This document shows positions 41,391 through 61,986 of a stretch of 64,000 nt of DNA, one piece after another. How positions within the stretch are numbered: the first letter of the stretch is position 1; every line of letters begins with the position of its first letter. Under the pieces are notes generated by a model that ran no database searches, was not told the origin of the DNA, and saw only the letters and a program-made list of their open reading frames with translations. Made by a program: the position numbers and the translations under genes. The stretch is from Desulfatitalea alkaliphila. Lineage in GTDB: Bacteria > Desulfobacterota > Desulfobacteria > Desulfobacterales > Desulfosarcinaceae. The stretch lies in the NCBI RefSeq assembly GCF_022968795.1, contig NZ_JALJRB010000015.1, positions 1 to 64,000 of the forward strand, in the 5' to 3' direction.

Positions 41391-42815
41391 TTAAGCGCTT
41401 TGGCTGTCATCGACCGGCGCCGGATCTTCGTTGGCGTTGAACAGCGCCTCGATGGTGTGGCGGTCATATTTACCGGCAGCGGTCAGGGGTATGTGATCCA
41501 CCACCTTGATCCCCCGCGGACGGGCATAGGGGTCCAATGTCTCGGCCAAGGCCCGGTTCAGATCGACGACCGTTGCCTCCCCTTCCACCAGAGCCATGAT
41601 CTGATTCTCCCGGGCGCGCCCCACCGGCAAGGCCAGCACCAGTGCCTCGCGCACACCGGGCTGTTGTTTTAGCGCCTGGCGCACGGCTTCCAGGTCCACC
41701 CGCTTGCCGCCCACCTTGACGATCCCGTCCGCCCTGCCCAACAGGCGAAAACGCCCACCGGCGGCGGCCGCGGCCCGGTCGCCCATGGTGAAAGATCCAG
41801 TGCGGGCGTCAACCAACCCCGGCGACAGATAGTCGGATCGCACCTCCAACCGCTCATCGATGATGCGCACGGCCACCGTCTCATAGGGTTTGAAATCGGT
41901 TTCGCCATCGGCCCGCACCCGCGCAGCGATCCCGCCGGTTTCGGTGGAGCCGTAAATTTCCGCCACCCTGACGCCGGTTTGGGCATGAAAGGCGTGGGCA
42001 TCCACCTCGGCCAACATGCCGGCCGAGGAAAAGGCCAGTCGCAGGCGGCGGGGCTGCCAAGGGTGCCCGTTCAAGGCCCGGTAGTGGGCCGGCACACTGA
42101 TCAAGATCGTGGCATCGACATCATCGACCACCGCCTCGATCTCCGCAGGAAAGGAGGGCGCCGGGCCGGCCACCGCGGCCCGGGCCAACAACGGCGCCAG
42201 GATCGCGTAAAGCAGACCGTAGATATGATTGGGGCTGACGGTGGCCACCATGCGATCCGCCGCGGTGATGCGGTAATGTTCCACAATGGCGATGGATTCG
42301 GCCAGCAGGTTGCGTACCGTCTTGGTCCACATGGAAGGAGTGCCGGTGGAGCCGCCGGTGAACAGTCGCACCCACTCGTCCGAGGTGCGCTTCGGTATCA
42401 GCGCCATCGCCGGCGGCCAACAGCTCTCGGCGGGCGTGGGATGCAGCGCCGTCACGCCGTCCGGCAACGGGCGCGGTCCATCCACCACCGCATGATCGAA
42501 TCCGGTCACAACCCGCACCTCCGCCAGCACGCCGGGCGACAGGCTGTAGGGCAGCACCAGCGCCGGGCCGCCCGCCAATGAAGCCAACAAAGCGGCGGCC
42601 ACCACCGCCTTGTCTTCCGCACACAGGCAAACCAGCGGCGCCCGGCCCATGGCATCCCATTCGGCCAGCAAACAGCCGGCCATGGCGTACAAATCCGCAT
42701 AGCGGGTACGGCCGATGACAAAATGGGATGCCCCCTCGTCCGGATCCGCCAACAGTCGCCCCATCCAGCGGTTCAATTCCGCTTCGCTCCTGACAAGATG
42801 TGTCGCTGCACTCAA
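41391..42815 (-). CDS. AMP-dependent acyl/aryl ligase (ApeH-like)
   Basis: ANL-superfamily enzyme expected to activate a carboxylic acid as acyl-AMP and load it on ACP or CoA. Core motif FTGGSTGTPSMWTK, motif AEIYGSTETGGIA, FRLLGRADGIVKVGGKRVDL (hinge) and the catalytic Lys near TAAGKYDRHT. Short for the family (about 474 residues), as in ligases of aryl-polyene loci. The start is uncertain: TTG 42815 has GGAGAG upstream; Met at 42854 lacks a site. It is divergent from the first radical SAM gene and marks the left edge of the biosynthetic locus; it is a candidate for starter-unit activation. Confidence 0.82.
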   Translation of the reverse strand: MSAATHLVRSEAELNRWMGRLLADPDEGASHFVIGRTRYADLYAMAGCLLAEWDAMGRAPLVCLCAEDKAVVAAALLASLAGGPALVLPYSLSPGVLAEVRVVTGFDHAVVDGPRPLPDGVTALHPTPAESCWPPAMALIPKRTSDEWVRLFTGGSTGTPSMWTKTVRNLLAESIAIVEHYRITAADRMVATVSPNHIYGLLYAILAPLLARAAVAGPAPSFPAEIEAVVDDVDATILISVPAHYRALNGHPWQPRRLRLAFSSAGMLAEVDAHAFHAQTGVRVAEIYGSTETGGIAARVRADGETDFKPYETVAVRIIDERLEVRSDYLSPGLVDARTGSFTMGDRAAAAAGGRFRLLGRADGIVKVGGKRVDLEAVRQALKQQPGVREALVLALPVGRARENQIMALVEGEATVVDLNRALAETLDPYARPRGIKVVDHIPLTAAGKYDRHTIEALFNANEDPAPVDDSQSA

Positions 42816-42946
42816 AAGCGTCTCTCCATTCGCATGGCCATAACCAACAGGCATAAAATCCGAAAAATGGAGCCATAACACGCAGGGGATGGATTTGACA
42901 ACTTACGCACTTTCCGACCGGCAGCACTTATCGCCGATTCGCCCCT

Positions 42947-43020: not shown

Positions 43021-44112
43021 GTGAATCGACATCCAGCACCCATTAGCAATTTCGAGTTTTCCCCTGAAGATATCAAAGAGGCGGTCCGCCGGGGCCGGCT
43101 GCTCTCCATGGAGATCGAGTTCAGCCTGCGCTGCAATTTTCGCTGCCCCTATTGCTATGTGCCCCGGGAAGACCAGCTGAAAAACGAGCTCTGTCTGGAC
43201 GAAATCAGGGACACCATTCTGCAAGCCAAGGCCCTGGGCGCACGCAAGATCATCATTCTGGGTGGGGAGCCTACCATTTATCCCCACACCCTGGAACTGA
43301 TCCGCTTCATGCGGGGCCATGAGCTGGAGGTGGAAATTTTCTCCAACGGCAGCGGCATCACCGCCGAGTTTGCCCGACAGTTGCATGCGATGCAGGTGCG
43401 GGTGGTGATGAAGATGAACAGCTTCGATGCGGAGCTGCAGGATCGCCTTTCCGGCCTGCCGGGAGCCCACCGGATCATCCACGACGCCCTGGAGCACCTC
43501 AAGTCGGCCGGCTATCCTTCCGCCGAACACTTCCTGGCGGTCAGCTCCATCATCTGCCCACAGAACATCGACGAGTTGCCCGGTATGTGGCAGTGGCTGC
43601 GGGAGCAGGGTATCGCCCCCTATTTCGAGATTATTACACCCCAGGCCAACGCCCGCCACAACGATTGGCTCATGGTGGATCCCCTGGAGCTGGAACGCTT
43701 TTTTCAGGATATCGCCGACATGGACCGGCGCCTGTTCGGCCAGGAGTGGGAGATCCAGCCCCCACTGGTGGGCAATAAATGCATGCGCCACAAATTCTCC
43801 TGCCTGGTCAATGCGCAAGGGTATGTGATGCCCTGCGTGGGGGTGACCATCCCGTTGGGCAACATCCGCCAACAACCGTTGACCAGGATTCTGGCCGAAA
43901 GCCAGGTGCTCAAGGATCTGAAAGACCACCGCCACACCATCAAAGGGCCTTGTCACGACTGCGACCGCGCCGAAGAGTGTTATGGCTGCCGCGGCGCCGC
44001 CTACCAGCTCACAGGCGACTATCTGGCCTCCGACCCCCTGTGCTGGCGTAACTGCCGCACTCAGAAGCTGCAGTGCGCATCCGCGGTCCCGCAGAAGCGG
44101 TCTGCCGTGTAA
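43021..44112 (+). CDS. Radical SAM protein with SPASM-type C-terminal cluster
   Basis: 363 residues. The 4Fe-4S/SAM site is C38-x3-C42-x2-C45 (RCNFRCPYC), with the GGEPT motif for SAM at about residue 80. The C-terminal part holds eight or more further cysteines (CMRHKFSC, MPCVG, CHDCDRAEECYGC, CWRNC), the SPASM/twitch pattern for auxiliary iron-sulfur clusters. Proteins of this type modify peptides or small molecules. It is the only gene in the middle of the locus on the plus strand. GTG start at 43021. It is convergent with the PlsY-like gene, and the substrate is unknown. Confidence 0.9.
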   Translation: MNRHPAPISNFEFSPEDIKEAVRRGRLLSMEIEFSLRCNFRCPYCYVPREDQLKNELCLDEIRDTILQAKALGARKIIILGGEPTIYPHTLELIRFMRGHELEVEIFSNGSGITAEFARQLHAMQVRVVMKMNSFDAELQDRLSGLPGAHRIIHDALEHLKSAGYPSAEHFLAVSSIICPQNIDELPGMWQWLREQGIAPYFEIITPQANARHNDWLMVDPLELERFFQDIADMDRRLFGQEWEIQPPLVGNKCMRHKFSCLVNAQGYVMPCVGVTIPLGNIRQQPLTRILAESQVLKDLKDHRHTIKGPCHDCDRAEECYGCRGAAYQLTGDYLASDPLCWRNCRTQKLQCASAVPQKRSAV

Positions 44113-44180: not shown

Positions 44181-44819
44181 CTACTCCGAACCGTCCCTAT
44201 CGACAACGGATGGCGCGGCGGCTTGCCGCCAAGCCCTTATATTGCCGTGGTGAAACCACACGATCATCGCCACGGTCAGCACCACGGCGCCCATTCCCAC
44301 CCCATCCCCCCACCAATGGATCAGCCCGCCGGCGGCCAATACGGCCAACAGACCGAATGAGCCGATGAAAGAACGGCGCCACAGGGCGAAAACCAATAAA
44401 TAGATCCCCAAGGCCGCAAGGGTGACCCAAGGCATCAGGGCACCGCAGAAACCGATGTAGTTGGCCACGCCTTTGCCGCCCCGAAAGCGGTGGCACCATG
44501 GATAGCGGGTGCCCATCACCAGGGCCCAGCCGGCCCAGGGCACCAAAGTGGCGGGCCAATGGTGGGCGGCCAGCAAGCCCACGGCCACGGCGCGCCCCAC
44601 ATCCAGCAGCAGCACCAGTGCGGCCAACGGCCAGCCGGCTTGACGATAGACATTGGAGACGCCGGGATTGCCGCTGTAGCGGCTGCGAGGGTCCTCCCAT
44701 CCGAGCAAACGGAACAGCACGATGGCGAAATTGACCGATCCGGCCAGGTACGCCAAAAGCAGGCCCAACAAAAAAACGGTTGCGGACAACGATGCGCTGG
44801 TCAAATCATTGAATGGCAT
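44181..44819 (-). CDS. PlsY-type glycerol-3-phosphate acyltransferase
   Basis: A 212-residue integral membrane protein. Family motifs: AYLAGSVNFAIVLFRLLG (motif 1, GSxP-like), SGNPGVSNVYR (motif 2, normally GNPGATNxxR), and HRFRGGKGVANY (motif 3). PlsY transfers an acyl group from acyl-phosphate to glycerol-3-phosphate. It is the last gene of the 12-gene minus-strand biosynthetic operon, 11 bases after the PKS-type dehydratase gene. This suggests that the cluster's acyl chain ends on a glycerolipid, or that the enzyme is a re-purposed acyltransferase. Start chosen at ATG 44819. Confidence 0.82.
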   Translation of the reverse strand: MPFNDLTSASLSATVFLLGLLLAYLAGSVNFAIVLFRLLGWEDPRSRYSGNPGVSNVYRQAGWPLAALVLLLDVGRAVAVGLLAAHHWPATLVPWAGWALVMGTRYPWCHRFRGGKGVANYIGFCGALMPWVTLAALGIYLLVFALWRRSFIGSFGLLAVLAAGGLIHWWGDGVGMGAVVLTVAMIVWFHHGNIRAWRQAAAPSVVDRDGSE

Positions 44820-44830
44820 GGGTGTGGCAC

Positions 44831-45712
44831 CTATCCCTGATCTTCGGCGGGAATGCCCCGGCGCACCCATGCCGGCGGCACCCAACGGCCACCGCTCACA
44901 TCCCGCATGGCCACGCCGCGCAGCACTTCATAATGCCGGTCCCGGGCATCGGTGATCTTCAGATCGAACAGCAAGGTGCCCCCCTCCCGTCCCACCCACA
45001 CCACCTGCGCCAGATAGCGCTGCCCCGGCCGAGTGGGGGTCGCGATGTGCCGTTGGGCAAAACCCACGGGAAACGCCACCACCCCCGCGAACCGCTGTGC
45101 CCACACACAGGCGGCATGAAAGGCGGCGTCCAGCACGAAGGGTGAACCGAGACTGCCGGCGACGCCCGCGTGGGTCGGCGCCTGGATCACGGCCCGGGCA
45201 GCGCCGGCATCGAGCACCAGGGGTTCAACGATATTACGGTAGGCAGGGCCGAAGGGCACCAACGCTTCGTACAGCCGGACCGGATCGACGCTGAAGGTTG
45301 CACCTGTCGCACGCGCCGGCGGCGCAAACGGTTCGGCCGACCCCGAACCGTCGTCGGGCATAAAAACGACCTGCGCGTGGGTCACCATGCGCCGAATGCG
45401 CGCCGCGCCGGCTTGGATGCGGCTGAGCAGGGCGGCGCGCAAACCGCCGCCCGGCAATGTCGACAGATCGCAGTAGGCTGCTATTGCACCGCCATCGGGC
45501 GGCAATGCCAGGAATTTATCGAAACGGGCAGCGCCCATGCGGTGCAGGTTCAATTCAGGGCGAACCGACCGGCACACATCGGCCAGCACCTGCAAGGCTT
45601 CCACCGCGGGCAGCACGGCCCGCTCCTGGAAGCGGTGGTCCGACCAGCAGGCCTCGGTTTTCAGATTCAGCAACCGGCGTTCGCCGGCGCCTATTTGGGG
45701 AAAATCTCCCAC
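44831..45712 (-). CDS. Stand-alone PKS-type double-hotdog dehydratase
   Basis: A 293-residue protein that looks like an isolated polyketide synthase DH domain. N-terminal half: SDHRFQERAVLPAVEAL, which fits H-x3-(G)-x4-P with catalytic His and the Pro kept but Gly replaced by Glu. C-terminal half: FVLDAAFHAACVW, the D-x3-(Q/H) motif with catalytic Asp. FGPAYRNIVE matches the GYxYGPxF-type region. It would dehydrate a beta-hydroxyacyl-ACP. The GTG start at 45712 overlaps the thioesterase gene by 22 bases, but the exact start is not secure. Confidence 0.75.
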   Translation of the reverse strand: MGDFPQIGAGERRLLNLKTEACWSDHRFQERAVLPAVEALQVLADVCRSVRPELNLHRMGAARFDKFLALPPDGGAIAAYCDLSTLPGGGLRAALLSRIQAGAARIRRMVTHAQVVFMPDDGSGSAEPFAPPARATGATFSVDPVRLYEALVPFGPAYRNIVEPLVLDAGAARAVIQAPTHAGVAGSLGSPFVLDAAFHAACVWAQRFAGVVAFPVGFAQRHIATPTRPGQRYLAQVVWVGREGGTLLFDLKITDARDRHYEVLRGVAMRDVSGGRWVPPAWVRRGIPAEDQG

Positions 45713-46176
45713 AGGCGCACCGTTTTGGGGTCGACGGCCACCGGCGTGCCCTTGGCGTTCACCGCGCAGTGCTTGGTGAAGCCGATGCAGACGATATCGC
45801 CGCTCTCCTGGTGGGTGATAATGTAGTCGAAACGCAACTTGACCCGTTCCATGGGACCGGGACGGGTGTGAATGAGCATGGCGTCATCGTAGCGCAGCGG
45901 CCGGTAGTAGTCGATGCCGGTGGAGATGATGGGGTAGACAAAACCGCTCTCTTCGATCTCCCGGTACGGATAGGCCGCCTCGCGCATCAGCGAGGCGCGG
46001 CCAAATTCGAAATAGCGCAGGTAGTTGGCATGGTACACCACCTGGGAGCGGTCGGTGTCGGCATAGAGGGTGCGCAAACGGCAGCGGTGCCAGACCAGGC
46101 CGGTGGTGTCGTCGCACACACAGGATTGGAACGCCGCGTCGTCAAGGGGTCGGGGCACGAAGGGTTTGGGTCGCAT
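45691..46176 (-). CDS. Hotdog thioesterase, 4HBT family (ApeK-like)
   Basis: A 161-residue acyl-CoA/ACP thioesterase-like protein. The signature YADTDRSQVVYHANYLRYFEFGR contains the catalytic Asp of the 4-hydroxybenzoyl-CoA thioesterase type, and ISTGIDYYRPLRYDD follows the central strand. Its ATG comes immediately after the TGA of the ketosynthase gene (no spacer), so it is translated from the same message. Likely hydrolyses or transfers the product or aberrant intermediates from ACP. Confidence 0.88.
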   Translation of the reverse strand: MRPKPFVPRPLDDAAFQSCVCDDTTGLVWHRCRLRTLYADTDRSQVVYHANYLRYFEFGRASLMREAAYPYREIEESGFVYPIISTGIDYYRPLRYDDAMLIHTRPGPMERVKLRFDYIITHQESGDIVCIGFTKHCAVNAKGTPVAVDPKTVRLWEIFPK

Positions 46177-47442
46177 TCAAACCCCCCGGAAAACGATGCA
46201 GCAGTTGGTGCCGCCGAAGCCGAAGGCGTTGGACAGAAAATGCTCGTAGGTGTGCCGCCGCGCCGCGTTGGGTACCACATCCACATCGGCCAGATCGGGA
46301 TCGGGGATGTGGTTGGCGGTGGGCAGCAGGATGCCCCGCCGCATGGCCTCGATGCCGAGCGCCGCTTCGATGGCCGCCGCGGCGCCCAGGGTGTGGCCGA
46401 TCTGGGATTTGTTGGCGGTCACCGTCACCCGCTGCAAATCGTTGCCGAAAATGGCGCGCAAACATTCCACCTCCACCTTGTCCCCTTTGGGTGTGGAGGT
46501 GCCGTGGGCATTGACGTGGGGAATGTCCGCGGCCGTCAAACCGGCATCGTCGATGGCTTCGGCCATGGCCCGGATGATGGTGGGCTTGTGGGGCAGGGTG
46601 AAATGATGTGCGTCGGAGGACCATCCCACCCCCACCACTTCGGCCTTGGGGGTCAACCCCAGGGTTTTGACACGCTCTTCGGCTGCCAGCACCAGCGCGC
46701 CCGCGCCCTCGGCCAACACGAACCCCTTGCGATCGATGCTGTAGGGCCGGGAGGCCTGGGCAGGATCCCCATGGGCGCGATCGCCCGGCTCGACCTTGAT
46801 GGTGGCCCACATGTTGGCGAAGCCTTGAATGATCTCGGGGATCAGGCAGGTTTCCACCCCGCCGGCGATGACAAAATCGCAATCGCCGTCACGGATCATG
46901 CGCGCCCCCAGGGCGATGGCATGGTTGCCCGATGCGCAGGCCCCCTGGGGCGAAAAGATGGGGCCGGTGAAACCCAACTGCATACCCGCCTTGCCCGCCG
47001 GTAGATTGGCGCACAAATTGGGCAACAGATAGGGACTCACTTTGGTGGCGCCGTGGCGGGTGTAATTCTGGATGGCAATGCGCAGGGCATCGCTGCCGTT
47101 GAGGGCCGATCCGATCAGGCAGGCGGTGCGCGGCGCGGTCTCATCGTCCATGACCAGGCCGGCATCGGCCAGGGCGCGCCGGCACAGCACCATGGTCAGA
47201 AATACAAAATCGGCGTTCCAGTTGCGGGCCTCTCGCGTTTCGATATGGCCGTCGGCCAAAGGGTCCCAGTCCGGAATTTCGCCCACCACATTGCTGCGGG
47301 AGGTGGTCTGACAGCGGGTCACGCGCCGGAACCCGGCCTCGCCGCGCAGGGCGCGTTGCCAGGTACTCTCGAAGGTGCTGCCCAGTGCCGTGGCGGCATC
47401 GTAGCCGACGACGTAAACTTTGCGATTCAGTGGTGCTTTCAT
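46177..47442 (-). CDS. Beta-ketoacyl-ACP synthase (FabF/ApeO-R-like)
   Basis: A 421-residue thiolase-fold condensing enzyme. Catalytic triad present: Cys in SPQGACASGNHA, His in VNAHGTSTPKGD and His in NKSQIGHTLGAA, with the C-terminal GFGGTNCC. Extends an acyl chain with malonyl-ACP. It overlaps the preceding ketosynthase gene as ATGA and abuts the thioesterase gene. Together with its neighbour and the fused ketosynthase it gives the locus three apparently active condensing enzymes. Confidence 0.93.
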   Translation of the reverse strand: MKAPLNRKVYVVGYDAATALGSTFESTWQRALRGEAGFRRVTRCQTTSRSNVVGEIPDWDPLADGHIETREARNWNADFVFLTMVLCRRALADAGLVMDDETAPRTACLIGSALNGSDALRIAIQNYTRHGATKVSPYLLPNLCANLPAGKAGMQLGFTGPIFSPQGACASGNHAIALGARMIRDGDCDFVIAGGVETCLIPEIIQGFANMWATIKVEPGDRAHGDPAQASRPYSIDRKGFVLAEGAGALVLAAEERVKTLGLTPKAEVVGVGWSSDAHHFTLPHKPTIIRAMAEAIDDAGLTAADIPHVNAHGTSTPKGDKVEVECLRAIFGNDLQRVTVTANKSQIGHTLGAAAAIEAALGIEAMRRGILLPTANHIPDPDLADVDVVPNAARRHTYEHFLSNAFGFGGTNCCIVFRGV

Positions 47443-48689
47443 TGAACCTTCTCAAAGACGATACAAGCGTTGCAGCCTCCGAAACCGAAGGCGTTTTTGA
47501 GCACATGGGTCTGGTCCACCTTGCGTCGGCCTTCGGCCACGCAATCGATGGGCAGTTCCGGGTCGGGTTGGTGGTTGATGGTGGGCGGCAGCACCCCGTC
47601 GCGCAGCCCCAAAAAGGCGAAGATGGATTCGATGGCGCTGGAGGCCCCCATGGCATGCCCGATCAAAGACTTGTTGGCGGTCACCGGCGGCATGGCCTTG
47701 CCGAAAACCGCCCGCAGGGCATCGAACTCCACCTTGTCCCCCACCCGCGTGGAGGCGGCATGGGCGTTGACGGCGTCCACGTCTGTCGGCGCTATGCCGG
47801 CCCGCACAATGCTCTGCTGGATGCAACGCTGCACCGTGGGCAAGTGGGGCGCCACGAAATGGTGGGCATCGGAACTCATGCCCCAGCCGGCGACGGCCAC
47901 GTCGTGAGCCAAGCCTTGGGCCCGGGCGAAGTCGCTGCGCGCCAGGATAATGCACCCGGCTCCCTCGGCGATCACAAACCCGCGCCGATGAAGTGAAAAG
48001 GGCCGACTGGCCAGGGCCGGCGATTCCTCGGGTTGTCCCGGCTTGGGCACATAGGCGCCGCCCATGGTGGCGAAACCGGCCACGATGGGTTCCACAAGGG
48101 CGAAATCCACCGCGCCGCACAACACCACATCGGCCTGGTCCTGGGCCAGCAGCATGGCGCCGGTGATCATGGAACTGACCCCGGTGGCGCAGGCGGTGAT
48201 GGTGCTGATGATGGGGCCCGTGGCACCGGTGTGCATGGAGACCTTGCCGGTCACCATGTTGATGCAGGCATTGGGATTGACACACGGCAAGGGCAGAGTG
48301 CCGTGGGCCGCCAATTTACGGTCGGCGGCCAGCACCGTATCCAAGCCGCCCACGGCCGAACTGTAGGTGATGGCCGTTCGCGGCGCCAATTCGGGGGTGA
48401 TCTCCAGGCCGCATCGTTCCAAGGCCCGCTGCACCGTCAGCAAGGCATACTTGAAGATGGGCGACGGCCAGCGCGCCTGCTCCCTGGGCTTGAGAAAGGG
48501 ATAGGCCAGATGATCGATGTCGGGCGCCTGGCCGGCGATGCGCACCGGAAAATCGTCTCCGGGAGCGAACCGGGTCAGCGGACCGACACCGCTTCGGCCG
48601 GCCAGGGCGGCCTGCCACTGGGCCTCCAGGTCGATCCCCAGGGGCGATATCGCATCATAGCCGATGATGACCGCACTTTTGGCGTCCAT
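47439..48689 (-). CDS. Beta-ketoacyl-ACP synthase
   Basis: A 416-residue condensing enzyme, paralogous to the next gene. Triad: Cys in ISTITACATGVSS, His in VNAHAASTRVGD and His in NKSLIGHAMGAS; C-terminal FGGCNACIVFE. The HAAST variant in place of the usual HGTST is a small departure at the first histidine. Weak ribosome binding site; about 60 bases separate it from the upstream radical SAM gene, and its stop overlaps the following ketosynthase start. Confidence 0.92.
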   Translation of the reverse strand: MDAKSAVIIGYDAISPLGIDLEAQWQAALAGRSGVGPLTRFAPGDDFPVRIAGQAPDIDHLAYPFLKPREQARWPSPIFKYALLTVQRALERCGLEITPELAPRTAITYSSAVGGLDTVLAADRKLAAHGTLPLPCVNPNACINMVTGKVSMHTGATGPIISTITACATGVSSMITGAMLLAQDQADVVLCGAVDFALVEPIVAGFATMGGAYVPKPGQPEESPALASRPFSLHRRGFVIAEGAGCIILARSDFARAQGLAHDVAVAGWGMSSDAHHFVAPHLPTVQRCIQQSIVRAGIAPTDVDAVNAHAASTRVGDKVEFDALRAVFGKAMPPVTANKSLIGHAMGASSAIESIFAFLGLRDGVLPPTINHQPDPELPIDCVAEGRRKVDQTHVLKNAFGFGGCNACIVFEKVQ

Positions 48690-48749: not shown

Positions 48750-49748
48750 CTACCATGGGATGAACTGGTAGAGCTTGGCGAACATTTCGTAAACCTCGAT
48801 CCAGTTCTGCAAATCCTTGGTCGAGCGCATATGGGACCGCTTGTTGACCATCACCCAGCTCATGTGGGCCGCCCCGTCCTTGCAGGTGGTGCAGTCGCGG
48901 GTCTCGGAGGTGCAGCAGCGGTGCATGGTCTGCAAATCGGAAGCCCAGCGGATGAAGTTGGTCAGGCGCCGGGGCTGCGGATTGCGGTGATCCAGGGGTT
49001 GGGTCACCGAAGGGCACTCCATCCAGCCGAAGGGCCGCCCCAGCATGCGGCCGGTGGTGATGATCTCGTGGTAGTATTTGGAGGAGATGACCGTGTCGGG
49101 ATAGGCGTCCAGCATGGCGTCCATCTCCTGCCGGATGGTGCTCAGCTCCTCCGGCTGCCAGGAGAAGCCGTCCACCCCTTCGTCGTTGGAAAGCAGCTGC
49201 ATGTGCACCTTGAGCCCCACATCGCGGATTTTACGGATGATGCGCTCGGTCTGGCCGATCTGCCGCGGCGTGATGGTGTACAGGTAGTAGACGTAAGGAT
49301 CGCCGGCGTAATGGCGACTCGAAACGGCGAAGGTGTCCTTGCCGCGCAGCAGCTTTTCGGCCGCCTCGTCGCCCCACAAGGAGATGCCGATCATCATGTC
49401 GGGAAAACGGTCCCGGGGCACCTTGATCAAGCCGTTGGTGGCGCAAAAAGTGGGCAATCTTTTGTAAAACGCCTCCACCCGGTCCAGACAGAGGGTGGGC
49501 TCGCCGCCGATCAGGATGGCCAGGTTGACCCCCCGTTCCATCTCCTTGTCGATGAAGGTCTCCCAACGGTGAAGGTCCATCTCCTCCGGGGCGGCCTCGT
49601 GTTCGCCGGATGAAAAGAAAAAGCAGCCCTTGCAGCGCAGATTGCAACGATTGGTCACGTCGTAGATGGAGCTGCGGATGTTGAGCTTGGAAATCTTCTT
49701 GTAGCGTGCATACCAATGTTCATCCAGCAGCGAGCTGACGGTCTTCAT
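48750..49748 (-). CDS. Radical SAM protein (tandem paralogue 2)
   Basis: 332 residues. Radical SAM site C35-x3-C39-x2-C42 (RCNLRCKGC), SAM motif GGEPTL, and strand motif ATNGLIKVP. Near the C-terminus it has CC-x7-C-x2-C (CCTSETRDCTTC), likely ligands of an auxiliary cluster. It shares DVTNRCN-RC-GCFFF, GxEPxL, ATNGL-K-P, ISLWG and the C-terminal CC...DCxxC with the preceding gene, so the two are duplicates that have diverged. Ribosome binding site GAGGAAA. The substrate is unknown; its position suggests modification of the ACP-bound chain. Confidence 0.88.
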   Translation of the reverse strand: MKTVSSLLDEHWYARYKKISKLNIRSSIYDVTNRCNLRCKGCFFFSSGEHEAAPEEMDLHRWETFIDKEMERGVNLAILIGGEPTLCLDRVEAFYKRLPTFCATNGLIKVPRDRFPDMMIGISLWGDEAAEKLLRGKDTFAVSSRHYAGDPYVYYLYTITPRQIGQTERIIRKIRDVGLKVHMQLLSNDEGVDGFSWQPEELSTIRQEMDAMLDAYPDTVISSKYYHEIITTGRMLGRPFGWMECPSVTQPLDHRNPQPRRLTNFIRWASDLQTMHRCCTSETRDCTTCKDGAAHMSWVMVNKRSHMRSTKDLQNWIEVYEMFAKLYQFIPW

Positions 49749-49784: not shown

Positions 49785-50885
49785 CTAAAAAAGGGCGAAC
49801 CCCGGTGGTGATACGGGGGCCGAGCACAAGTTGTTTCCTTTGGGATAGTCGCTGACCCACACCGCCAGGTAGGTGTCCACATAATCGAGCCACGCGTTGA
49901 AGGTATCCGGATCGGTGGCATGGCGAAACAGACGCGCCGTCACCACCGCGCTGCCGGCCGCGTAGTGGCGGCAGTCATCGCAATCGGTGTCGGGTACGCA
50001 GCAGGCGACGCTGCGGTCCCAGTTCAGGTCGGTGCGGTACTGGCGGAAAGAACGTCCCAGGCCGATATCGGTGGAAGGATTGCATCGCGGGTATGAGCAA
50101 CCGTAAAGGGCGTGCAACCCCAGGCGATGGGTGTGGGCCACGGCATTGTATGGCGAGAAAAGCACGGTGTCGGGGTGATTCGCCAACAAGGTCAGCATAG
50201 CCTGCCGCGTCCGACGCAGGGAATCTTCCGTGTGGCGCAAGGTGCCCGTGTAGCCCACCGGCGAAGAGAAGACGTTGAAGGTGATTTTACACCCTTGGGA
50301 TGCCAACTGCCGGGTGACCTCTTCGGCTTCTTCGATGTTGTGGGGCGTGAAGGTGTAGACGAACACCGCCCGGGCATCGTCGCGGTAGTTTTCGATCTGC
50401 CGCTGCAACATGTGCTTGGCGTTGCGGATGCGCTCGCTGGTGCGGTCGTTGCCCCACACGGAGATATGGATCTTGTATCCCACCTGCGCGGGAATCTTGC
50501 GCAAACCGTTGGTGGCGATGGCCCCCAGGGGCATCTGCTCATGGCAAACCGTCAGCAGCTCGGGCACCAGGGAGGGTTCGGCACCGGCCAGCACCACATA
50601 GGTGATACCGCGCGCCTTCTCGGACTGCATCAGGGCCCGCCAGGCTTCAGGGTCCGACACTTCCCGGGCGTGCTGCTTTTCGCCCTCAAAATAGTAGCAT
50701 CCGTCGCAGCGTATGTTGCAACGGTGGGTCATGTCATAGGTGGATTCGCGCAGAAAAAAGTACTGCCGCACCTTCTCCCACCGCTCACGCACCGCCGCAT
50801 CGGCGATCAACTCGGAGAACTTCCATTGCCTTGCGGCGCCCCCGGCCCCTTCGGCCGAAGGCGCGGCCTCATTTTGTTCCACCAT
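49785..50885 (-). CDS. Radical SAM protein (tandem paralogue 1)
   Basis: 366 residues. Radical SAM site C56-x3-C60-x2-C63 (RCNIRCDGC), AGAEPSL where GGEP is usual, ATNGLRKIP, ISVWGND, and a C-terminal CC-x5-C-x2-C (CCVPDTDCDDC). Its ATG overlaps the TAA stop of the ACP gene by one base (TAATG), so ACP and radical SAM enzyme are translationally coupled. An Ala/Gly-rich N-terminal tail of about 20 residues precedes the domain. Confidence 0.88.
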   Translation of the reverse strand: MVEQNEAAPSAEGAGGAARQWKFSELIADAAVRERWEKVRQYFFLRESTYDMTHRCNIRCDGCYYFEGEKQHAREVSDPEAWRALMQSEKARGITYVVLAGAEPSLVPELLTVCHEQMPLGAIATNGLRKIPAQVGYKIHISVWGNDRTSERIRNAKHMLQRQIENYRDDARAVFVYTFTPHNIEEAEEVTRQLASQGCKITFNVFSSPVGYTGTLRHTEDSLRRTRQAMLTLLANHPDTVLFSPYNAVAHTHRLGLHALYGCSYPRCNPSTDIGLGRSFRQYRTDLNWDRSVACCVPDTDCDDCRHYAAGSAVVTARLFRHATDPDTFNAWLDYVDTYLAVWVSDYPKGNNLCSAPVSPPGFALF

Positions 50886-51160
50886 TACGCCTCGGCTGTC
50901 CGTTTCTTGTAAATGTATTCCGAAATCAGGCGCAGTGTGGTCAGCTTGGGATAATCGTCCTCGTCGATGCGCACGGCATATTGGTCCCGCAGCACCAGGG
51001 CCACGGTGGCCAAATCCATACTGTCGATGCCCACCTCGTCCACCAGGTCGATGTCGGGGTCGAAGGTTTCGGCCGTGACATCCTCCAGCTTCAGTTCCTC
51101 AATCATGATTCGGGCGATATCGCGAATCATCCGGTCCAGATCAGTTGTTACCACCGCCAT
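50885..51160 (-). CDS. Acyl carrier protein (second ACP of the locus)
   Basis: A 91-residue acidic protein with the phosphopantetheine attachment Ser47 in EVGIDSMDLATV and helix I IARIMIEELKLEDV. It carries growing acyl chains as thioesters. It lies between the ApeI-like dehydratase and the tandem radical SAM genes and is coupled to the latter. Distinct from the first ACP of the operon (about 30% similar by eye), so the two may serve different steps. Confidence 0.92.
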   Translation of the reverse strand: MAVVTTDLDRMIRDIARIMIEELKLEDVTAETFDPDIDLVDEVGIDSMDLATVALVLRDQYAVRIDEDDYPKLTTLRLISEYIYKKRTAEA

Positions 51161-51165
51161 GCCTG

Positions 51166-51555
51166 TTATTCTCCTTTAGCAGAATCTTTTGCCTCTTTGG
51201 CGCCGGCCGCCGCCACCACCATGTTGCCGCTGCAGACCAGCACTTCGTCCTTGCTGATGCGAAAGCTGTAATTGTCGTTTTTCCCCGGCCGGGCCTCGGC
51301 CGTAACCACCAGGTGATCGTCCGGCAGCACCATCTGCTTAAATCGCACCCGACTCACCTCCACCACCCGCAGGGGCATTTCCCGAGCGTGGCGGAGGACA
51401 TCCAGCACCATTCCCAACTGAGCAACTCCCGGAAGAATCGGATGGCCGGGGAAATGGCCGTTGAACCAGGGGGACGACGGTGGCACGTGCACATCGGCCG
51501 ACGGGCATTGCGCATCATAAGGCGTTCGAATTGTTAGATGATACCACACAGCCAT
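51166..51555 (-). CDS. ApeI-like hotdog 3-hydroxyacyl-ACP dehydratase
   Basis: A 129-residue single hotdog. FNGHFPGHPILPGVAQLGMV matches the FabZ/ApeI active-site helix with the catalytic His kept; the Glu that FabZ carries four residues after PGV is Gly here, as in ApeI-like proteins, where the motif is PGVxQL. ApeI acts in dehydration during aryl-polyene chain growth. Start chosen at ATG 51555; a GTG at 51636 would add 27 residues without a convincing site. Five bases separate it from the ACP gene. Confidence 0.85.
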   Translation of the reverse strand: MAVWYHLTIRTPYDAQCPSADVHVPPSSPWFNGHFPGHPILPGVAQLGMVLDVLRHAREMPLRVVEVSRVRFKQMVLPDDHLVVTAEARPGKNDNYSFRISKDEVLVCSGNMVVAAAGAKEAKDSAKGE

Positions 51556-51642
51556 TTTTATTGTAAATCCTGTTTTGCATTCCCCCCAACGGCGCTTCGC
51601 ACCGACCGCCGCAATCGATCCACCCGGTGACGCCACTCTGTT

Positions 51643-52992
51643 TCAACGGACCAGGTATTCCCACAACGGCCCTGAGAAACCGCGCCGATACATGCGGGCC
51701 ATGATTTTAACCACCTTTTCCCCGCCGGCCCCCACCACCCAGTTGTCCCGCTGTCGGGCGTGCCCGGTCACCTGCGTGATCACATGGTCCATGGCCAGGC
51801 CGGGTGGGCGATAAAACACCGGTTCGAGCAGGTTGTCGCCGGTACTGATCTGCGCCTCGGCCACAGCCCGTTGGTAAAGGTCCGTATGAGGGTAAATGCG
51901 CATCCCGGCAAAGAGGAATAGAACGCATTTTTCCAACCTGTCAATACGCTCCAACGATTCGGCCACCGTTTGCGCCGTTTCGCCGGGACCACCGAACAGG
52001 AAATAGTGGGCCACATGCAGTCCGGCCGCCACGGCGGCTTTATGGGCCACCTTGACCTGATCGGTGTGAAACGGTTTGCCGTAGGCCTTGAGCACCGCGT
52101 CACAGAACGCCTCGGTACCGAACTCCACGTGGCGCAAGCCGCATCCGGCCAGGGTGTCGAAATAGCCGTCGGGCAGCGCCGTGGGCGCGAAAAACCCGCC
52201 CCAGGGAATGGTCACCCCCGCATCCCGCAGGGCCTGACCGACGGCCAGGCTGTGGGGGATATCGGCATTGAAGGCCGAGTCCGTGAGAAAAATATATTTG
52301 GCGCCGGCCTCCTGGAGCTGCCGGGCGATGCGGCCGATGATTTCGGGTGGTTCGCAACGCATGTGCCGCCCCTCGATGCGCGGATAGGTGCAGTAAACAC
52401 AGCGAAAGGGGCAACCCCGCTTGGTTTGCAGATTGAGCATGCCGCCGTTGCGCAAGTAGAAATCGGTGTGCGCTGCATCGGGGTCGAAGCGCCGCGCCCC
52501 TGCGCCCGCCAATGGCGGCGGGGCACCGCGCCGGCCGCCGCGAACGATCACCCCCGGCACCGCCAGGGGGTCTTGCCCGTTGGCAAGGGCATCGAGCAGC
52601 AATCCCAACCGCTCGCCCTCGCCCACGATGCCGTAATCGGCCGCCAAGGCGTCCATGATCTCGCGGGGAAACAGGGTGAAACCGCTGCCGCCCAAAATGA
52701 CGGGGCCATTGCAGCAGCGCCGCACCCTTTCCACCAAGTCGCGGTAGCCGGGAATGTAGCCCCTGGGGTCGGTGATATCGGTGTTGTCGATGTTGCGCAG
52801 GGAAAGGCCGATCACCTCCGGCGCGAAGGCGCCGACGGCATCTTCCAGGGTAAGGCCCTCGGGCAACCGGTTCATGTCCAGCACCCTGACGGTGTGATCG
52901 GCGGCGATGGCCCCGGCCACATAGTCCAACCCCAGCGGATAAACCGGGTAGGGCTCGCGCACCGTATTGGCCGATAGCAGCAACACCTTCAT
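51643..52992 (-). CDS. B12-binding-type radical SAM protein
   Basis: 449 residues. The N-terminal third resembles a cobalamin-binding Rossmann domain of class B radical SAM enzymes (KVLLLSANTVREPYPVYPLG, PEVIGLSLRNIDN, GPVILGGSGFTLFP, YGIVGEGE). The radical SAM site is C194-x3-C198-x2-C201 (RGCPFRCVYC), followed by IFLTDSAFNAD and FFLFGGPGET. Enzymes of this architecture often methylate unactivated carbons or rearrange skeletons. The ATG at 52992 overlaps the TGA of the ketosynthase fusion (ATGA), tying it to the condensing enzyme. Confidence 0.88.
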   Translation of the reverse strand: MKVLLLSANTVREPYPVYPLGLDYVAGAIAADHTVRVLDMNRLPEGLTLEDAVGAFAPEVIGLSLRNIDNTDITDPRGYIPGYRDLVERVRRCCNGPVILGGSGFTLFPREIMDALAADYGIVGEGERLGLLLDALANGQDPLAVPGVIVRGGRRGAPPPLAGAGARRFDPDAAHTDFYLRNGGMLNLQTKRGCPFRCVYCTYPRIEGRHMRCEPPEIIGRIARQLQEAGAKYIFLTDSAFNADIPHSLAVGQALRDAGVTIPWGGFFAPTALPDGYFDTLAGCGLRHVEFGTEAFCDAVLKAYGKPFHTDQVKVAHKAAVAAGLHVAHYFLFGGPGETAQTVAESLERIDRLEKCVLFLFAGMRIYPHTDLYQRAVAEAQISTGDNLLEPVFYRPPGLAMDHVITQVTGHARQRDNWVVGAGGEKVVKIMARMYRRGFSGPLWEYLVR

Positions 52993-55157
52993 GGCAGCCG
53001 GATCCCCACGGCGCTCACGCCATCGCCCAGTCCCAGCAACAGCACCGCCTTGCCCGCCAGGGCGCAAGGGGCACCACCGGCCAGAGCTGCGGGCACCGCG
53101 CCAGCGCGCACCATGGCGACCCCCATCACGGCGGCCACGGCCGAAGCGGTGCCGAATTCCCCGGTCAAGCGTCGGTAATCCACCATTGGTCCATCAAAAC
53201 CGCTGGCCTGCCGGAAAGCCGCCCATTGGGCCTCGGCCACTGCATAGGCCCGGGCCGGCATCCCGACCAAGATTGCGCCGTAATTGTTGTGAACGACATC
53301 GGCGCCGCCCAGCAGGCCCACCAAGTCGGCCCCGGTCCCGGCGCCATCACCGCTGCGATAGGCCAGCAGTTGAAGCATCGGCGCGTTGCCGCCCGGTTCA
53401 CGCCGCAACAGAAGGGCGCCGCCGCCGTCGGCCGCCGGCGGGTCCGGCCGTGCCGCGGGCGCCAGCAGGGGCGAGAGTTGCGGATGGTGTTCATCCAAGC
53501 CGGCCACCAAGACCGCATCCGCGGAGCGTCGTGTCAGCAGGTCGGCGGCCAGCAACGCCTGCTCGAAACTGTGGTCGCCGCCCGAGGTGGTCACATTGGC
53601 GCCTTTGATACCCAATTGCATGGCAATCTGACCGGCCGGCGCATTGTGCACCGACCCGACAAAATCAGTGGGCGACGGATACTGCCCCCGGGTCTCGGCC
53701 AATCGCTGCAAAAAGGCATGGGTTTCGGAAAGGGCGCCCCAGGCGGTGCCGATACTCACCGCCGTCGGCATGCGCTCCGGCGCCAGATCCCGGCAGGCAT
53801 TCATCGCCAGGGACAGCGCCATGCGGGGCAACCGCTTGAAGCGACGGATGACCCGTGGCGGCAACGCCTCGGACAGGGTCTGTTCATCGAGACAACCGGC
53901 GCACTCCTTGCCCGCCAACAAGGCCTCCAGGCTGGCCGGTCCATGACCGGCGCCGGTGATGCAGGCGGCGCCTTGCACCGACAGCGGCGCGGTGACGACC
54001 GAGGGTGCCGCCACCGCAGCGGCACCGGCGGCGCGACCCACGATCACCGTCGCGTTGTTGCCGCCGAAACCGAAAGAGTTGGACATAACGGTCTTCAATG
54101 GTGCCGAACGGGGTGCGGTGACCGGCGAAATACCCAATTCGGGATCCGGCGTGCCATACCCCACGTTGCCAGGCAGCAGGCCGTTGCGGATGCACAGCGC
54201 CGCCACCACCGCCTCGATGGCCCCTGCTGCGGCCAGGGGATGCCCCATGGCCCCTTTGATGGAAGACAGCGGGGGCGGCTGCCGGCCGAACAACCGGTGC
54301 ACCGCCCGGCCCTCGGCCAAGTCGTTGTCCGGCGTACCGGTGCCATGCAGATTGATGTAGTCGATTTGCGCAGGCGTCAAGCCGGCATCGGCCAGGGCGG
54401 CGGTCATGGCGGCCAAAGCGCCTTCTCCCTCGGGATGGGGCGCGGTGGCATGGTGCGCGTCACAGGAGAGACCGGCACCCAGCAGGCATACCCCGTCAGC
54501 GGCGGCATCGGCACTGAGCAGCAGCAAAGCCGCGCCTTCGGCCACCGACATGCCGCGCCGCTCACGGTCAAGGGGCCGTGCGCCCGCCGGGTCGATCAGC
54601 TGCAGGGACTTGAAGCCGAAATAGGTCAAACGGCACAAGGAATCGACGCCGCCGGCCAGGACCCGTCGCGCCATGCCGCAACGCAACATTTCCAGGGCCA
54701 ACTTGAGGGCCACGGCCCCCGACGAGCAGGCGGTGGAAACGGTGAGCACCGGCCCGGTGCACCCCCATTGGCGGGCCAGATCCTCGGCCACCGTGGCGAG
54801 GCCATGATGACGGTAGGCCCGCGGGTCGGTGCAATGGTTTTGCAAAAGGGATTCTGTGGTCAGAATGCCGCCGGTGGTGGTGCCCAACACAATGGCATCG
54901 GGCGCCGCGTCGCTGCCGGCCAAGGCCTCCGCGGCCGCAATCCGCGCCAACCGATGGGTGCGGGGCAAGGCCTGGTCTTGCATATCGAACCCTCGGACCG
55001 CCCCCACGGGCAGCACTTGGCCGGCAGGCGCCACGAAAAGCGTCAAGCCGCTCAAGCCGCATTCCCCGCCGCGCAATGCCGCCAGGGTCCGCTCCGCACC
55101 GGTTCCCAACGCGCTGACCACTCCCATGCCGGCAATGGTCACCGGGACATCACTCAA
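52989..55157 (-). CDS. Ketosynthase fused to a chain-length-factor-like domain
   Basis: 722 residues with two thiolase-fold halves. Residues 1-385 are an active-type ketosynthase: Cys144 in VSTACSSGAVA, His in INLHGTGTPDND, His in KGAMGHPLAAAG, and GFGGNNATV. Residues from about 390 (CITGAGHGPASLEALL) are a shorter ketosynthase-like domain in which the nucleophile region reads TTSGGDHSFEQA, with no Cys, and the His motifs are missing, as in chain-length factors (KS-beta, ApeC-like). In known systems these are separate subunits that dimerise. It starts with TTG overlapping the ACP stop (TTGA), so it is co-translated with its ACP. Confidence 0.88.
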   Translation of the reverse strand: MSDVPVTIAGMGVVSALGTGAERTLAALRGGECGLSGLTLFVAPAGQVLPVGAVRGFDMQDQALPRTHRLARIAAAEALAGSDAAPDAIVLGTTTGGILTTESLLQNHCTDPRAYRHHGLATVAEDLARQWGCTGPVLTVSTACSSGAVALKLALEMLRCGMARRVLAGGVDSLCRLTYFGFKSLQLIDPAGARPLDRERRGMSVAEGAALLLLSADAAADGVCLLGAGLSCDAHHATAPHPEGEGALAAMTAALADAGLTPAQIDYINLHGTGTPDNDLAEGRAVHRLFGRQPPPLSSIKGAMGHPLAAAGAIEAVVAALCIRNGLLPGNVGYGTPDPELGISPVTAPRSAPLKTVMSNSFGFGGNNATVIVGRAAGAAAVAAPSVVTAPLSVQGAACITGAGHGPASLEALLAGKECAGCLDEQTLSEALPPRVIRRFKRLPRMALSLAMNACRDLAPERMPTAVSIGTAWGALSETHAFLQRLAETRGQYPSPTDFVGSVHNAPAGQIAMQLGIKGANVTTSGGDHSFEQALLAADLLTRRSADAVLVAGLDEHHPQLSPLLAPAARPDPPAADGGGALLLRREPGGNAPMLQLLAYRSGDGAGTGADLVGLLGGADVVHNNYGAILVGMPARAYAVAEAQWAAFRQASGFDGPMVDYRRLTGEFGTASAVAAVMGVAMVRAGAVPAALAGGAPCALAGKAVLLLGLGDGVSAVGIRLP

Positions 55158-55420
55158 TTGGGCAGCTCCGAAGCGTGTTCCTGGATATAGGCCGCGAGGG
55201 TACCGAGGGTGGCAAACACTTTGGCGCCCAGCTCCTTGTTGTTGATGGCCACCCCGTAATCCTTCTCGATCATGATGACCATCTCCAGCACATCGATGGA
55301 GTCGATGCCCAGCTCGCCTCCCACCAATTGGGCGTCGGTCTGGATATCCGCCGGTGTTACATCCGGCAGATTCAATATGTCGACAATTTTGACTTTCAGC
55401 TCTTCGATCAAATGTTCCAT
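55154..55420 (-). CDS. Acyl carrier protein (first gene of the operon)
   Basis: 88 residues, attachment Ser41 in ELGIDSIDVLEMVI, with typical helix I (LIEELKVKIVDILNLPD) and helix III. It heads the 12-gene minus-strand operon and overlaps the ketosynthase/chain-length-factor gene by four bases. ACPs of this DSIDVLEM type are usual in aryl-polyene and PKS-like type II systems. Confidence 0.93.
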   Translation of the reverse strand: MEHLIEELKVKIVDILNLPDVTPADIQTDAQLVGGELGIDSIDVLEMVIMIEKDYGVAINNKELGAKVFATLGTLAAYIQEHASELPN

Positions 55421-55864
55421 AATTCGTTGGTTACCCCACCCCTATGAATTGCACCGGCCGGCACCTTTTAAGCATGACAATGCATCAATAGGTGTCACCG
55501 GGCTGATCGGTTTTATTATCAGGTTCACATGAACCCTGTCCACCCCTAAAACCGGGACCGCTGCAAGCAATCCGCGATCACCACCCGAAGTTGATCGAGC
55601 ATCTTCTTGTCGAAATCGAAATCGCTATCGGGATCGGGATCTATTCTCTTTAATCCGGTGACCATAGTACCTGAATTTTTTCGATTTCGATCCCGATTTC
55701 GATTGTCACAGGATTATACAATGAACTTTCCCGGTGGCGCGCGGGGTCATGGACAGCCATTGTGTTTTATAGTACCATCCCACACCGCACATGATGCCGC
55801 GCAACCTTACTGTGCTATGCGTGTGCTTGTTTTTAAACCGTTATGCCGCAACGGACCATACCCT
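55421..55864. other. Divergent control region between the two biosynthetic operons
   Basis: 444 bases that must contain promoters for both operons. No gene. Two arms built of six-base units occur at 55610-55645 (TCGAAA, TCGAAA, TCGCTA, TCGGGA, TCGGGA) and 55681-55704 (TCGATT, TCGATC, CCGATT, TCGATT); they are partly complementary and could pair or bind a regulator. A weak sigma-54-like GGCAC-N5-AAGC at 55460 lacks the TT of the -12 element. Confidence 0.5.
55610..55704. repeat. Hexamer-periodic inverted repeat
   Basis: Left arm of five or six TCGAAA/TCGGGA-type hexamers and right arm of four complementary ones, separated by about 35 bases. This is a low-complexity repeat, not a coding sequence. 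Confidence 0.7.
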
Positions 55865-56290
55865 ATGCCGACGTCACCCCTGACCCTCGAAATGGTGTTG
55901 CCCCACCGCAAACCCATGCTGTTGATCGGGGAAGTGCTCTGCTTCGACGAGCAAGGCGCGGTCACCCGGTCCACCGCGGATGCACAATGGCCCCTGGGCA
56001 CTTCCGAGGGCATCAGCGGCTTGATCCTCATCGAGCTGGTGGCCCAGACCGCCGGCGTCAACAACGGATTGGCGCTGCGCAAACGAAACGGCGGCGGCCA
56101 CCAGCGCGGCTGGATCGTGGGCGTCAAACGGGCCCGTTTGATGATCGACCGCATTGCACCGGGCACCCAAATAGTGGTTGCAACGCAAAATGGTTTTGCC
56201 TATGAAAACTTTCGGGAGGTGCACGGCACCGTCCGCATCGACAACCAAACAGCCGCTGAAATCACGCTGCAACTGATGCAGGCCAAATAA
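55865..56290 (+). CDS. ApeP-like hotdog dehydratase
   Basis: 141 residues. LPHRKPMLLIGEVL is the N-terminal FabZ/ApeP motif and ILIELVAQTAGVNNGL the active-site helix with Glu; the region where FabZ has HFP reads WPLGTSEGISG. ApeP is the second dehydratase of aryl-polyene pathways and pairs with ApeI. The start at ATG 55865 is chosen because it begins just before the conserved part; upstream frame is open but not family-like, and the ribosome binding site is weak. First gene of the plus-strand operon. Confidence 0.83.
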   Translation: MPTSPLTLEMVLPHRKPMLLIGEVLCFDEQGAVTRSTADAQWPLGTSEGISGLILIELVAQTAGVNNGLALRKRNGGGHQRGWIVGVKRARLMIDRIAPGTQIVVATQNGFAYENFREVHGTVRIDNQTAAEITLQLMQAK

Positions 56291-56329
56291 TCAGGCGGCA
56301 GGATCGACTGTTCAGCAAAGGATCGACAT

Positions 56330-57070
56330 ATGCAAGATTCAGCCGGCAACAAACCGGTGGCGCTGGTCACCGGCGGCAGCAAGGGGATCGGCCGCGCCAT
56401 CTGCGTGGAGATGGCACGTTGCGGTTACGAGGTGATCATCAATTATCTTTCAGATGAGGCAGGTGCCCGGGAGACCCTGGCGCAGGTGGAGCAGCAGGGC
56501 GGCAGCGGCATGTGCATCGGTTTCGACGTGGCCGCGGAAGCGGCCACCCAGGACGCGCTTGAACGCATCTTCGCCACCTATGCATCGGTGGACGCCCTGA
56601 TCAACAACGCCGGCCGCATCGCCGACGAACTGTTCGTAATGATGACACCGGACAAATGGCGCGGCGTGATCGACACCACCCTGCAGGGGTTTTACAACGT
56701 CACACGGCCCGTGCTCGAAAAAATGGTGGTGCACAAACGGGGGTCGGTGGTCTCCATCGCCTCGGTGGCGGGCATCATGGGCAATCGCGGGCAGGCCAAC
56801 TACGCCGCCGCCAAGGCGGGGTTGATCGGCGCCAGCCGATCGGTGGCCGCCGAAGTGGCCCGGCTCGGCATCCGGGTCAATGTGGTGGCGCCGGGGTTGA
56901 TCCAGACCGACATGATCCATGACGCACCGGTGCAAAAGATAAAATCGATGATCCCCATGGCCCGCCTCGGCAAGGCCGAGGAGGTGGCCCGGGTGGTGCG
57001 TTTTCTCTGCTCGGAGGATGCATCCTACTTGACCGGCCAGGTCATCAGCGTCAACGGCGGTATGTTTTGA
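56330..57070 (+). CDS. 3-oxoacyl-ACP reductase (FabG/ApeQ-like)
   Basis: 246-residue SDR that reduces beta-ketoacyl-ACP with NADPH. TGGSKGIGRAI for cofactor, ALINNAGRI, catalytic Ser in SIASVAGIMGN, Tyr-x3-Lys in NYAAAKAG, and the FabG-type end DASYLTGQVISVNGGMF. It completes the ketosynthase-reductase-dehydratase cycle for the locus. Its TGA overlaps the TTG start of the LolA-like gene. Confidence 0.93.
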   Translation: MQDSAGNKPVALVTGGSKGIGRAICVEMARCGYEVIINYLSDEAGARETLAQVEQQGGSGMCIGFDVAAEAATQDALERIFATYASVDALINNAGRIADELFVMMTPDKWRGVIDTTLQGFYNVTRPVLEKMVVHKRGSVVSIASVAGIMGNRGQANYAAAKAGLIGASRSVAAEVARLGIRVNVVAPGLIQTDMIHDAPVQKIKSMIPMARLGKAEEVARVVRFLCSEDASYLTGQVISVNGGMF

Positions 57071-58361: not shown

Positions 58362-58384
58362 CCAAGCAATCGAAAAGGAAAACC

Positions 58385-61957: not shown

Positions 61958-61986
61958 GGGCCCCTTTCTCCTCTATTCGGTTTTGC

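Follow-up and report, generated by a model that had tools for sequence, protein, structure and literature searches.

A divergent PlsY-type acyltransferase linked to a radical-SAM ketosynthase locus in Desulfatitalea alkaliphila and its relatives

The last gene of a biosynthetic operon in Desulfatitalea alkaliphila encodes a PlsY-type protein that, on the evidence of its sequence, belongs to a separate clade of this family (clade S), in which the glycerol 3-phosphate pocket is intact and the acyl-phosphate pocket is altered. The linkage of the S-type genes to a locus of radical-SAM proteins and ketosynthases is conserved, as gene order shows. The protein is best read as a glycerol-3-phosphate acyltransferase of PlsY fold dedicated to the cluster, acting in the route proposed below, and a probability of a little under 60% may be given to this reading. 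What the S-type PlsY attaches to glycerol phosphate is probably the product of the cluster or a lipid anchor for that product. The DNA analyzed here, referred to as the window, is the first 64,000 nucleotides (64 kb) of a 114 kb contig, from a genome of 5.07 Mb.

The S-type plsY (PF02660, 212 amino acids; 44181–44819, reverse strand) and the adjacent dehydratase gene (44831–45712, reverse strand) lie where they were originally placed, at the end of the operon, and the locus itself runs on past the right edge of the window. The likeliest start of plsY is the ATG at 44819, 11 nucleotides past the dehydratase stop codon, while the TTG at 44885 simply opens the longest reading frame. The protein matches PF02660 with an E-value of 3.3e-32 (112.3 bits, cut-off 24.1), which places it in the family, and its AlphaFold model (pLDDT 89.6) finds aaPlsY (5xj7) as the top solved structure, with a Z score of 21.9 over 187 residues, at 2.1 Å. 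The clamp residues are intact, and the protein carries Thr92 and His98 (aaPlsY numbering, used throughout).

The operon runs leftwards from 55420 to 44181, with an acyl carrier protein first and PlsY last. On the reverse strand, this first acyl carrier protein (55154–55420) is followed by a ketosynthase fused to a second, divergent ketosynthase-like domain (52989–55157), a B12-binding/radical-SAM protein (51643–52989 by the limits of the profile match, with the longest frame reaching 53067), an ApeI/FabA-like single-hotdog dehydratase (51166–51636), another acyl carrier protein (50885–51160), radical-SAM proteins B (49785–50885; 26.8 bits, under the Pfam cut-off of 29.5) and A (48750–49748), two FabF-like ketosynthases (47439–48689 and 46177–47442), both Cys-His-His by alignment, and a YbgC/FadM-type thioesterase of the 4HBT family (45691–46176). 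Three radical-SAM proteins thus accompany the ketosynthases and acyl carrier proteins. The fused ketosynthase pair seems to be missing between the acyl carrier protein and the B12/radical-SAM gene in relatives such as G017 and G022.

The operon is faced by forward-strand genes (55607–59650), which encode a protein with no Pfam match in the window copy (55607–56290), whose orthologs are hotdog-like and give a weak ApeP-like match, an SDR ketoreductase (56330–57070), a LolA-like carrier (57067–57675), a DUF3261 (ApeN-type) protein (57672–58361), and a B12-binding/radical-SAM-like protein (58385–59650). On the other side, a radical-SAM/SPASM gene (43021–44112, forward strand) is convergent with plsY, and an AMP-binding ligase (41391–42881, reverse strand) is also found near the S-type gene in many relatives. 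Genes of a TRAP transporter (DctM and an NMT1-like binding protein, 59747–63090) separate the halves of the locus.

Past base 64000, the contig encodes an MMPL exporter fused to a SAM methyltransferase domain (contig 65578–68667, forward strand; L173:1578–4667), a fusion also found in SAR324. This is followed, on the reverse strand, by a B12/radical-SAM protein (69558–71051), PlsC (contig frame 71132–72391), a ketosynthase (71947–73185), an LpxL-type acyltransferase (73498–74514), a glycosyltransferase (74533–75261), and a fatty-acid kinase in which the Dak2, FakA middle, and DegV domains are fused (FakA–FakB; 75924–77762). A similar set is found in one SAR324 locus, where the S-type PlsY is accompanied by a Dak2-FakA_M-DegV fusion, an AMP ligase, PlsC, an MMPL exporter, and the two other enzyme types, a glycosyltransferase and an LpxL-type acyltransferase.

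A second plsY had been predicted, and a search of the genome with PF02660 recovered it at G000:C4:86957–87490. This protein scores 165 bits against PF02660, versus about 113 for the cluster copy, and it passes the equivalog cut-off of TIGR00023 (137.2 bits) with 154 bits, which the window PlsY fails with 89.7. The S-type proteins fall below this cut-off in six of six cases (89.7–108.6 bits), and the ordinary PlsYs lie above it in four of four (154–163 bits). In a tree of 48 PlsY proteins, the S-type (26 rows) is split from the ordinary type and aaPlsY (22 rows) at 100/100 support. When 394 genomes of the phylum were searched with a profile, 19 S-type proteins (that of the window included) scored at least 212 bits, and the next match reached 123; the count takes in second matches in G151, G153, G185, and G497 that were left unclassed. 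The frame beside the ordinary plsY (L001:2233–3504) appears, by eye, to join IspH-like and UbiA-like parts.

The S-type set comprises 91 distinct proteins, from 80 named loci and from the relatives. The named loci come from a single scan with two peptide patterns, and are the best 80 of 134 stretches encoding relatives; the taxa among these best 80 include Desulfatitalea, Desulfosarcina, Smithella, Syntrophaceae, Syntrophus, Spirochaetes, SAR324, and others.

In aaPlsY, as described in PMC5700162, glycerol 3-phosphate is held by Ser35, Arg45, Lys104, Asn180, Ser142, and His177, and the acyl-phosphate by the backbone amides of residues 104–107 and the side chains of Thr41 and His92. The six glycerol 3-phosphate residues are all present in the window PlsY, and in 91 of 91 or 90 of 90 S-type proteins, where readable, and Lys104–Ala107, whose backbone forms the loop of the phosphate hole, is invariant in all 91. 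The histidine at position 92 is replaced throughout, by Asn in 89 proteins and by Thr in two, those of the window and the sister genome G004, and all 91 have a histidine at position 98. The ordinary PlsYs of the same order have His92 in 21 of 21 cases and His98 in none of the 21. Position 108 of the S-type proteins is mostly Asn for Thr, a count biased by the inclusion of Asn108 in one of the two peptide patterns; positions 92 and 98 lie outside both.

The replacement of His92 by Asn or Thr, together with the histidine at 98, neither of which figured in the original prediction, is diagnostic of clade S. Among 7,288 PlsY homologs, His92 is reported to be conserved in 97.8%, with Asn in 0.5%, and the H92N variant of aaPlsY to retain 6.9% of its activity (PMC5700162), which counts against the reading preferred here; given that all 91 proteins replace His92, clade S tolerates a change that cripples aaPlsY. 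The histidine may have been relocated by six residues, from 92 to 98, which is an attractive explanation of this tolerance. The S-type PlsYs represent, then, natural variants at a pocket residue that is supposedly near-irreplaceable, which makes them useful for dissecting the recognition of the donor. The original prediction had pointed, instead, to motif 2, which does read GNPGVSN. This motif carries less weight, since Ala40Val is found in 23 and Thr41Ser in five of the 91 S-type proteins, and it was rejected as the key change, given that Thr41 is kept in 78 and that T41S retains 45% of the activity in aaPlsY (PMC5700162).

The replacement in all 91 proteins of His92, one of only two side chains that hold the acyl-phosphate, raises the alternative that the S-type PlsY has abandoned this donor for a thioester (acyl-ACP or acyl-CoA) or an acyl-adenylate. 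Most of the S genomes lack PlsX, and acyl carrier proteins and an AMP ligase are found in or near the operon, which would both suit such a donor. The invariant Lys104–Ala107 loop argues against it, as does the fatty-acid kinase fusion in the locus of 16 genomes, and the ordinary PlsYs of these bacteria also lack PlsX, yet have kept His92. This last observation also led to the rejection of PlsX loss as the cause of the change at position 92. A thioester donor was, at one stage, the first choice, but was demoted by the finding of the kinase in the locus, and a donor other than acyl-phosphate is now considered improbable.

FakAB is the known PlsX-independent route to acyl-phosphate. As the kinase fusion would provide such a source, a PlsY in a genome with no PlsX is no longer puzzling where the fusion is present. 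The sequence from FakAB acyl-phosphate to PlsY and then PlsC, with no PlsX, is reported to work in vitro (PMC13400652). The fusion was found in the fetched flanks of 13 of 21 genomes (12 of the 19 with an S-type gene), a hand-picked sample rather than a random draw, and in three further SAR324 loci. The flanks fetched for the other eight (G017, G022, G028, G030, G063, G072, G081, and G093) showed no such fusion; of these genomes, G093 has PlsX. The equivalents of the residues Asn32, Asp38, Asp40, Thr41, Asn82, Cys240, His282, and His284 are kept wherever they are covered (16 copies, one of them truncated), with the catalytic residues of FakA being those named in PMC9136124. The fusion stays below the cut-offs of NF038248 (FakA; 81.6 against 975 bits) and NF038249 (FakB1; 35.9 against 350 bits), NCBIfam models that describe separate full-length subunits. 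The system resembles the FakAB–PlsY route of the Firmicutes in its FakA and FakB domains, with their catalytic residues, and in having a PlsY downstream in the logic, and differs from it in the joining of the kinase and binding domains in one protein, the biosynthetic locus, and the host, a PlsB-bearing anaerobe.

At least two of the core genes (the thioesterase, the dehydratase, the two ketosynthases, and the two radical-SAM proteins) lie within 7 kb upstream of the S-type gene, on the same strand, in 61 of the 91 cases, and only one in a further six (in L114, a weak ketosynthase match only). No core gene was found within this distance and on this strand in the remaining 24, five of which (L120, L136, L142, L149, and L154) have, in place of the core genes, the half of the locus with the LolA-like and DUF3261 genes, while, of the others, several are near contig ends and the rest are truly separated. 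The dehydratase ends at most 400 nucleotides from the S-type gene in 57 of the 91, and S-type genes close this operon in both Desulfobacterota and Spirochaetes. The original prediction of a specialized, cluster-linked PlsY is borne out.

Among 59 relatives, with their kinship ignored, the S-type gene and a dehydratase ortholog are found together in 19, the S-type gene alone in six, the dehydratase alone in five, and neither in 29, with G010, G016, and G058, which gave weak matches only, scored as lacking the dehydratase. No dehydratase ortholog was found, then, in six of the 25 S-bearing relatives, and in several of the S-bearing relatives the gene sits apart from the cluster. A PlsY of either type is present in 24 of the 24 relatives with the dehydratase, and in 25 of the 35 without it (kinship again ignored). 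In five relatives the cluster is present and the only PlsY is of the ordinary type, encoded elsewhere in the genome, and the S-type is, therefore, not strictly required.

The 60 genomes that include that of the window (G000–G059) have PlsB (PF19277) in 59 cases, a PlsY of either type in 50, and PlsX (PF02504) in none. The search for PlsX does work, given that four of the 49 named S genomes match it at about 1e-100; PlsB is present in 47 of these 49, and the S-type protein is the sole PF02660 match above the cut-off in 48, with two in G070. These 49 come from a set of 50, of which L124 was left out. The ordinary PlsYs of G000–G059 are likewise found with no evident PlsX partner. Both types of PlsY occur together in only one of the 59 relatives (G004), in addition to the genome of the window, which has S-type and ordinary PlsYs as well as PlsB. 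These two genomes, G000 and G004, are also the only ones with Thr92 in the S-type protein.

The near exclusion of the two types, and the status of the S-type as the sole PlsY in so many genomes, would be expected if it were the housekeeping PlsY of the lineage, found in the cluster by chance. This is very unlikely. The presence of PlsB in nearly all the S genomes and the absence of PlsX speak against it, as do the recurrence of the linkage in two phyla, the ordinary PlsY in the genome of the window, and the ten relatives (of 59) that have no PlsY of any kind. The near exclusion may also reflect interchangeable enzymes, which fits the five cluster-bearing relatives that have only the ordinary type. 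The original prediction held that a sole plsY would mark a housekeeping gene, and this is ill-posed, since genomes with the S-type as their sole PlsY nearly always have PlsB and nearly always lack PlsX, and the S-type gene does not become a housekeeping one by having no second plsY beside it. Judging from gene content, PlsB, rather than PlsY, is most likely the enzyme that acylates glycerol 3-phosphate for the ordinary phospholipids of the S genomes. In a bacterial order with PlsB and PlsY, and no PlsX, a lone plsY is no proof of an acyl-phosphate housekeeping route.

The best reading of the overall order, as inferred here, runs from free acid to acyl-phosphate, to lysophosphatidate, and then to export. 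The ketosynthases, acyl carrier proteins, ketoreductase, and dehydratases would build the chain, which the radical-SAM proteins would modify and the thioesterase release as a free acid. The fatty-acid kinase would convert this acid to the acyl-phosphate, from which the S-type PlsY would transfer the acyl group to the 1-hydroxyl of glycerol 3-phosphate, and PlsC would attach a second chain. The glycosyltransferase and the LpxL-type enzyme might then complete the glycerolipid, which the MMPL, LolA-like, and DUF3261 proteins would carry to the outer membrane. The locus would thus predict the destination of its product, glycerol phosphate and then the envelope, and the kinase, S-type PlsY, and PlsC form a short, testable module. 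The least certain points are the chain moved by PlsY and the effect of the exchange of His92 for Asn and of the histidine at 98.

It is conceivable, though rather unlikely, that the S-type PlsY makes an anchor only, by acylating glycerol 3-phosphate with an ordinary fatty acid, with the chain of the cluster being added later by PlsC, the LpxL-type enzyme, or another protein. The presence of PlsC, the glycosyltransferase, and the LpxL-type acyltransferase in the same locus would fit this arrangement, which parallels the aryl-polyene loci of E. coli, where two acyltransferases, ApeD and ApeJ, are proposed as the anchors of the polyene (PMC8253772). The S-type gene, however, shares its operon with the chain-building genes, and is directly behind the dehydratase in 57 of the 91 cases, and its acyl-donor pocket is unlike that of the ordinary PlsY. 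The reading of a cluster-dedicated enzyme that moves the product chain itself is preferred here.

The locus is, by its gene content, a mix of ladderane-like and aryl-polyene-like genes. Its description as simply aryl-polyene-like does not hold, given that the B12/radical-SAM protein of the operon exceeds the cut-off of TIGR04072 (rSAM_ladder_B12; 394.5 bits against 360), which makes the locus ladderane-like with aryl-polyene-like parts. It shares with the ladderane clusters this protein, further radical-SAM proteins, divergent ketosynthases, acyl carrier proteins, and an anaerobic host, and adds the S-type PlsY, the PKS-type dehydratase, the LolA-like, DUF3261, and MMPL proteins, and the fatty-acid kinase. 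To our knowledge, the ladderane-annotated clusters found outside the anammox bacteria have no known product. Clusters of the ladderane type are described in Kuenenia and in Desulfotalea, which yielded no ladderanes (Rattray 2009, PMC2649909), and such clusters are reported to be expressed in Desulfobacterota and other phyla, with their function said to need testing (PMC9902471). The phytoene-desaturase-like gene listed as a ladderane-cluster feature (Rattray 2009) was not found among the scanned genes, which represent part of the reading frames of the window, and the main text of two ladderane papers (PMC2649909 and PMC4790861) makes no mention of PlsY or an acyltransferase.

The likeness to the ApeA–R genes of E. 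coli extends to two acyl carrier proteins, ApeI-like and weak ApeP-like dehydratases, a ketoreductase, ketosynthases, a 4HBT thioesterase, and the LolA-like and DUF3261 proteins, as well as, beyond the window, the MMPL/RND exporter, glycosyltransferase, and lipid acyltransferases. The core set of the aryl-polyene loci (KS/CLF, ACPs, KR, DHs, TE, LolA-like, and DUF3261) is present, with the ApeP-like match being weak, and the window locus adds several radical-SAM proteins, the PKS-type dehydratase, PlsY, and the fatty-acid kinase, all of which are missing from the gene table for E. coli (PMC8253772). The aryl-polyene loci have an aryl starter ligase, ApeH, and an AMP-binding ligase lies near the window operon. 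Neither the plsY nor the dehydratase is a standard aryl-polyene gene, as originally claimed, both being absent from the E. coli aryl-polyene gene table (PMC8253772). The contrast drawn between a membrane lipid and a polyene ester did not fare so well, as a polyene acid attached to glycerol phosphate would fall into both categories, and the aryl-polyene loci encode their own glycerolipid acyltransferase, ApeD (PMC8253772).

Compared with the known PlsYs (TIGR00023; aaPlsY 5XJ5–5XJ9), which it matches in fold and in the six glycerol 3-phosphate residues, the S-type differs in its sub-threshold TIGR00023 score, Asn or Thr at 92, His98, mostly Asn108, a biosynthetic operon, and the usual absence of PlsX. 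No earlier description of a PlsY with ladderanes or aryl polyenes was found in the open-licence literature searched. Tentatively, the ladderane-like clusters outside the anammox bacteria may possess a full glycerolipid line, with a radical-SAM-modified chain, a free acid, a dedicated fused kinase, and a new PlsY subfamily in which the histidine has moved from 92 to 98. If so, this would represent a second phospholipid pathway, running in parallel with PlsB and serving a chain that is strained or polyunsaturated.

The dehydratase is a PKS-type double-hotdog protein (PF14765, E-value 5e-10), the model of which (pLDDT 87.8) matches the fold of the PKS dehydratases, with a Z score of 25.0 (7zsk), while a sequence search of the PDB found no match at an E-value of 0.1. 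The catalytic His and Asp were correctly said to be kept, given that all 19 orthologs compared have both His26 and Asp195. The glutamate in the Hx3Ex4P motif is also present, as described, and carries little weight; it was rejected as a functional clue, given that the position varies among the 19 orthologs (Gly in 12, Asp in four, Glu in two, and Asn in one). The term “stand-alone” fits the window copy, which has no fused PPTase domain, unlike many relatives, and covers only one of two architectures: PF01648 was found in three of the four proteins scanned and, by similarity, the fusion is present in 41 of 94 open frames, a count that contains duplicates. A dehydratase fused to a 4'-phosphopantetheinyl transferase closes the operon in L104, L058, L072, and others, and the transferase part is lost or absent in the window and in G004.
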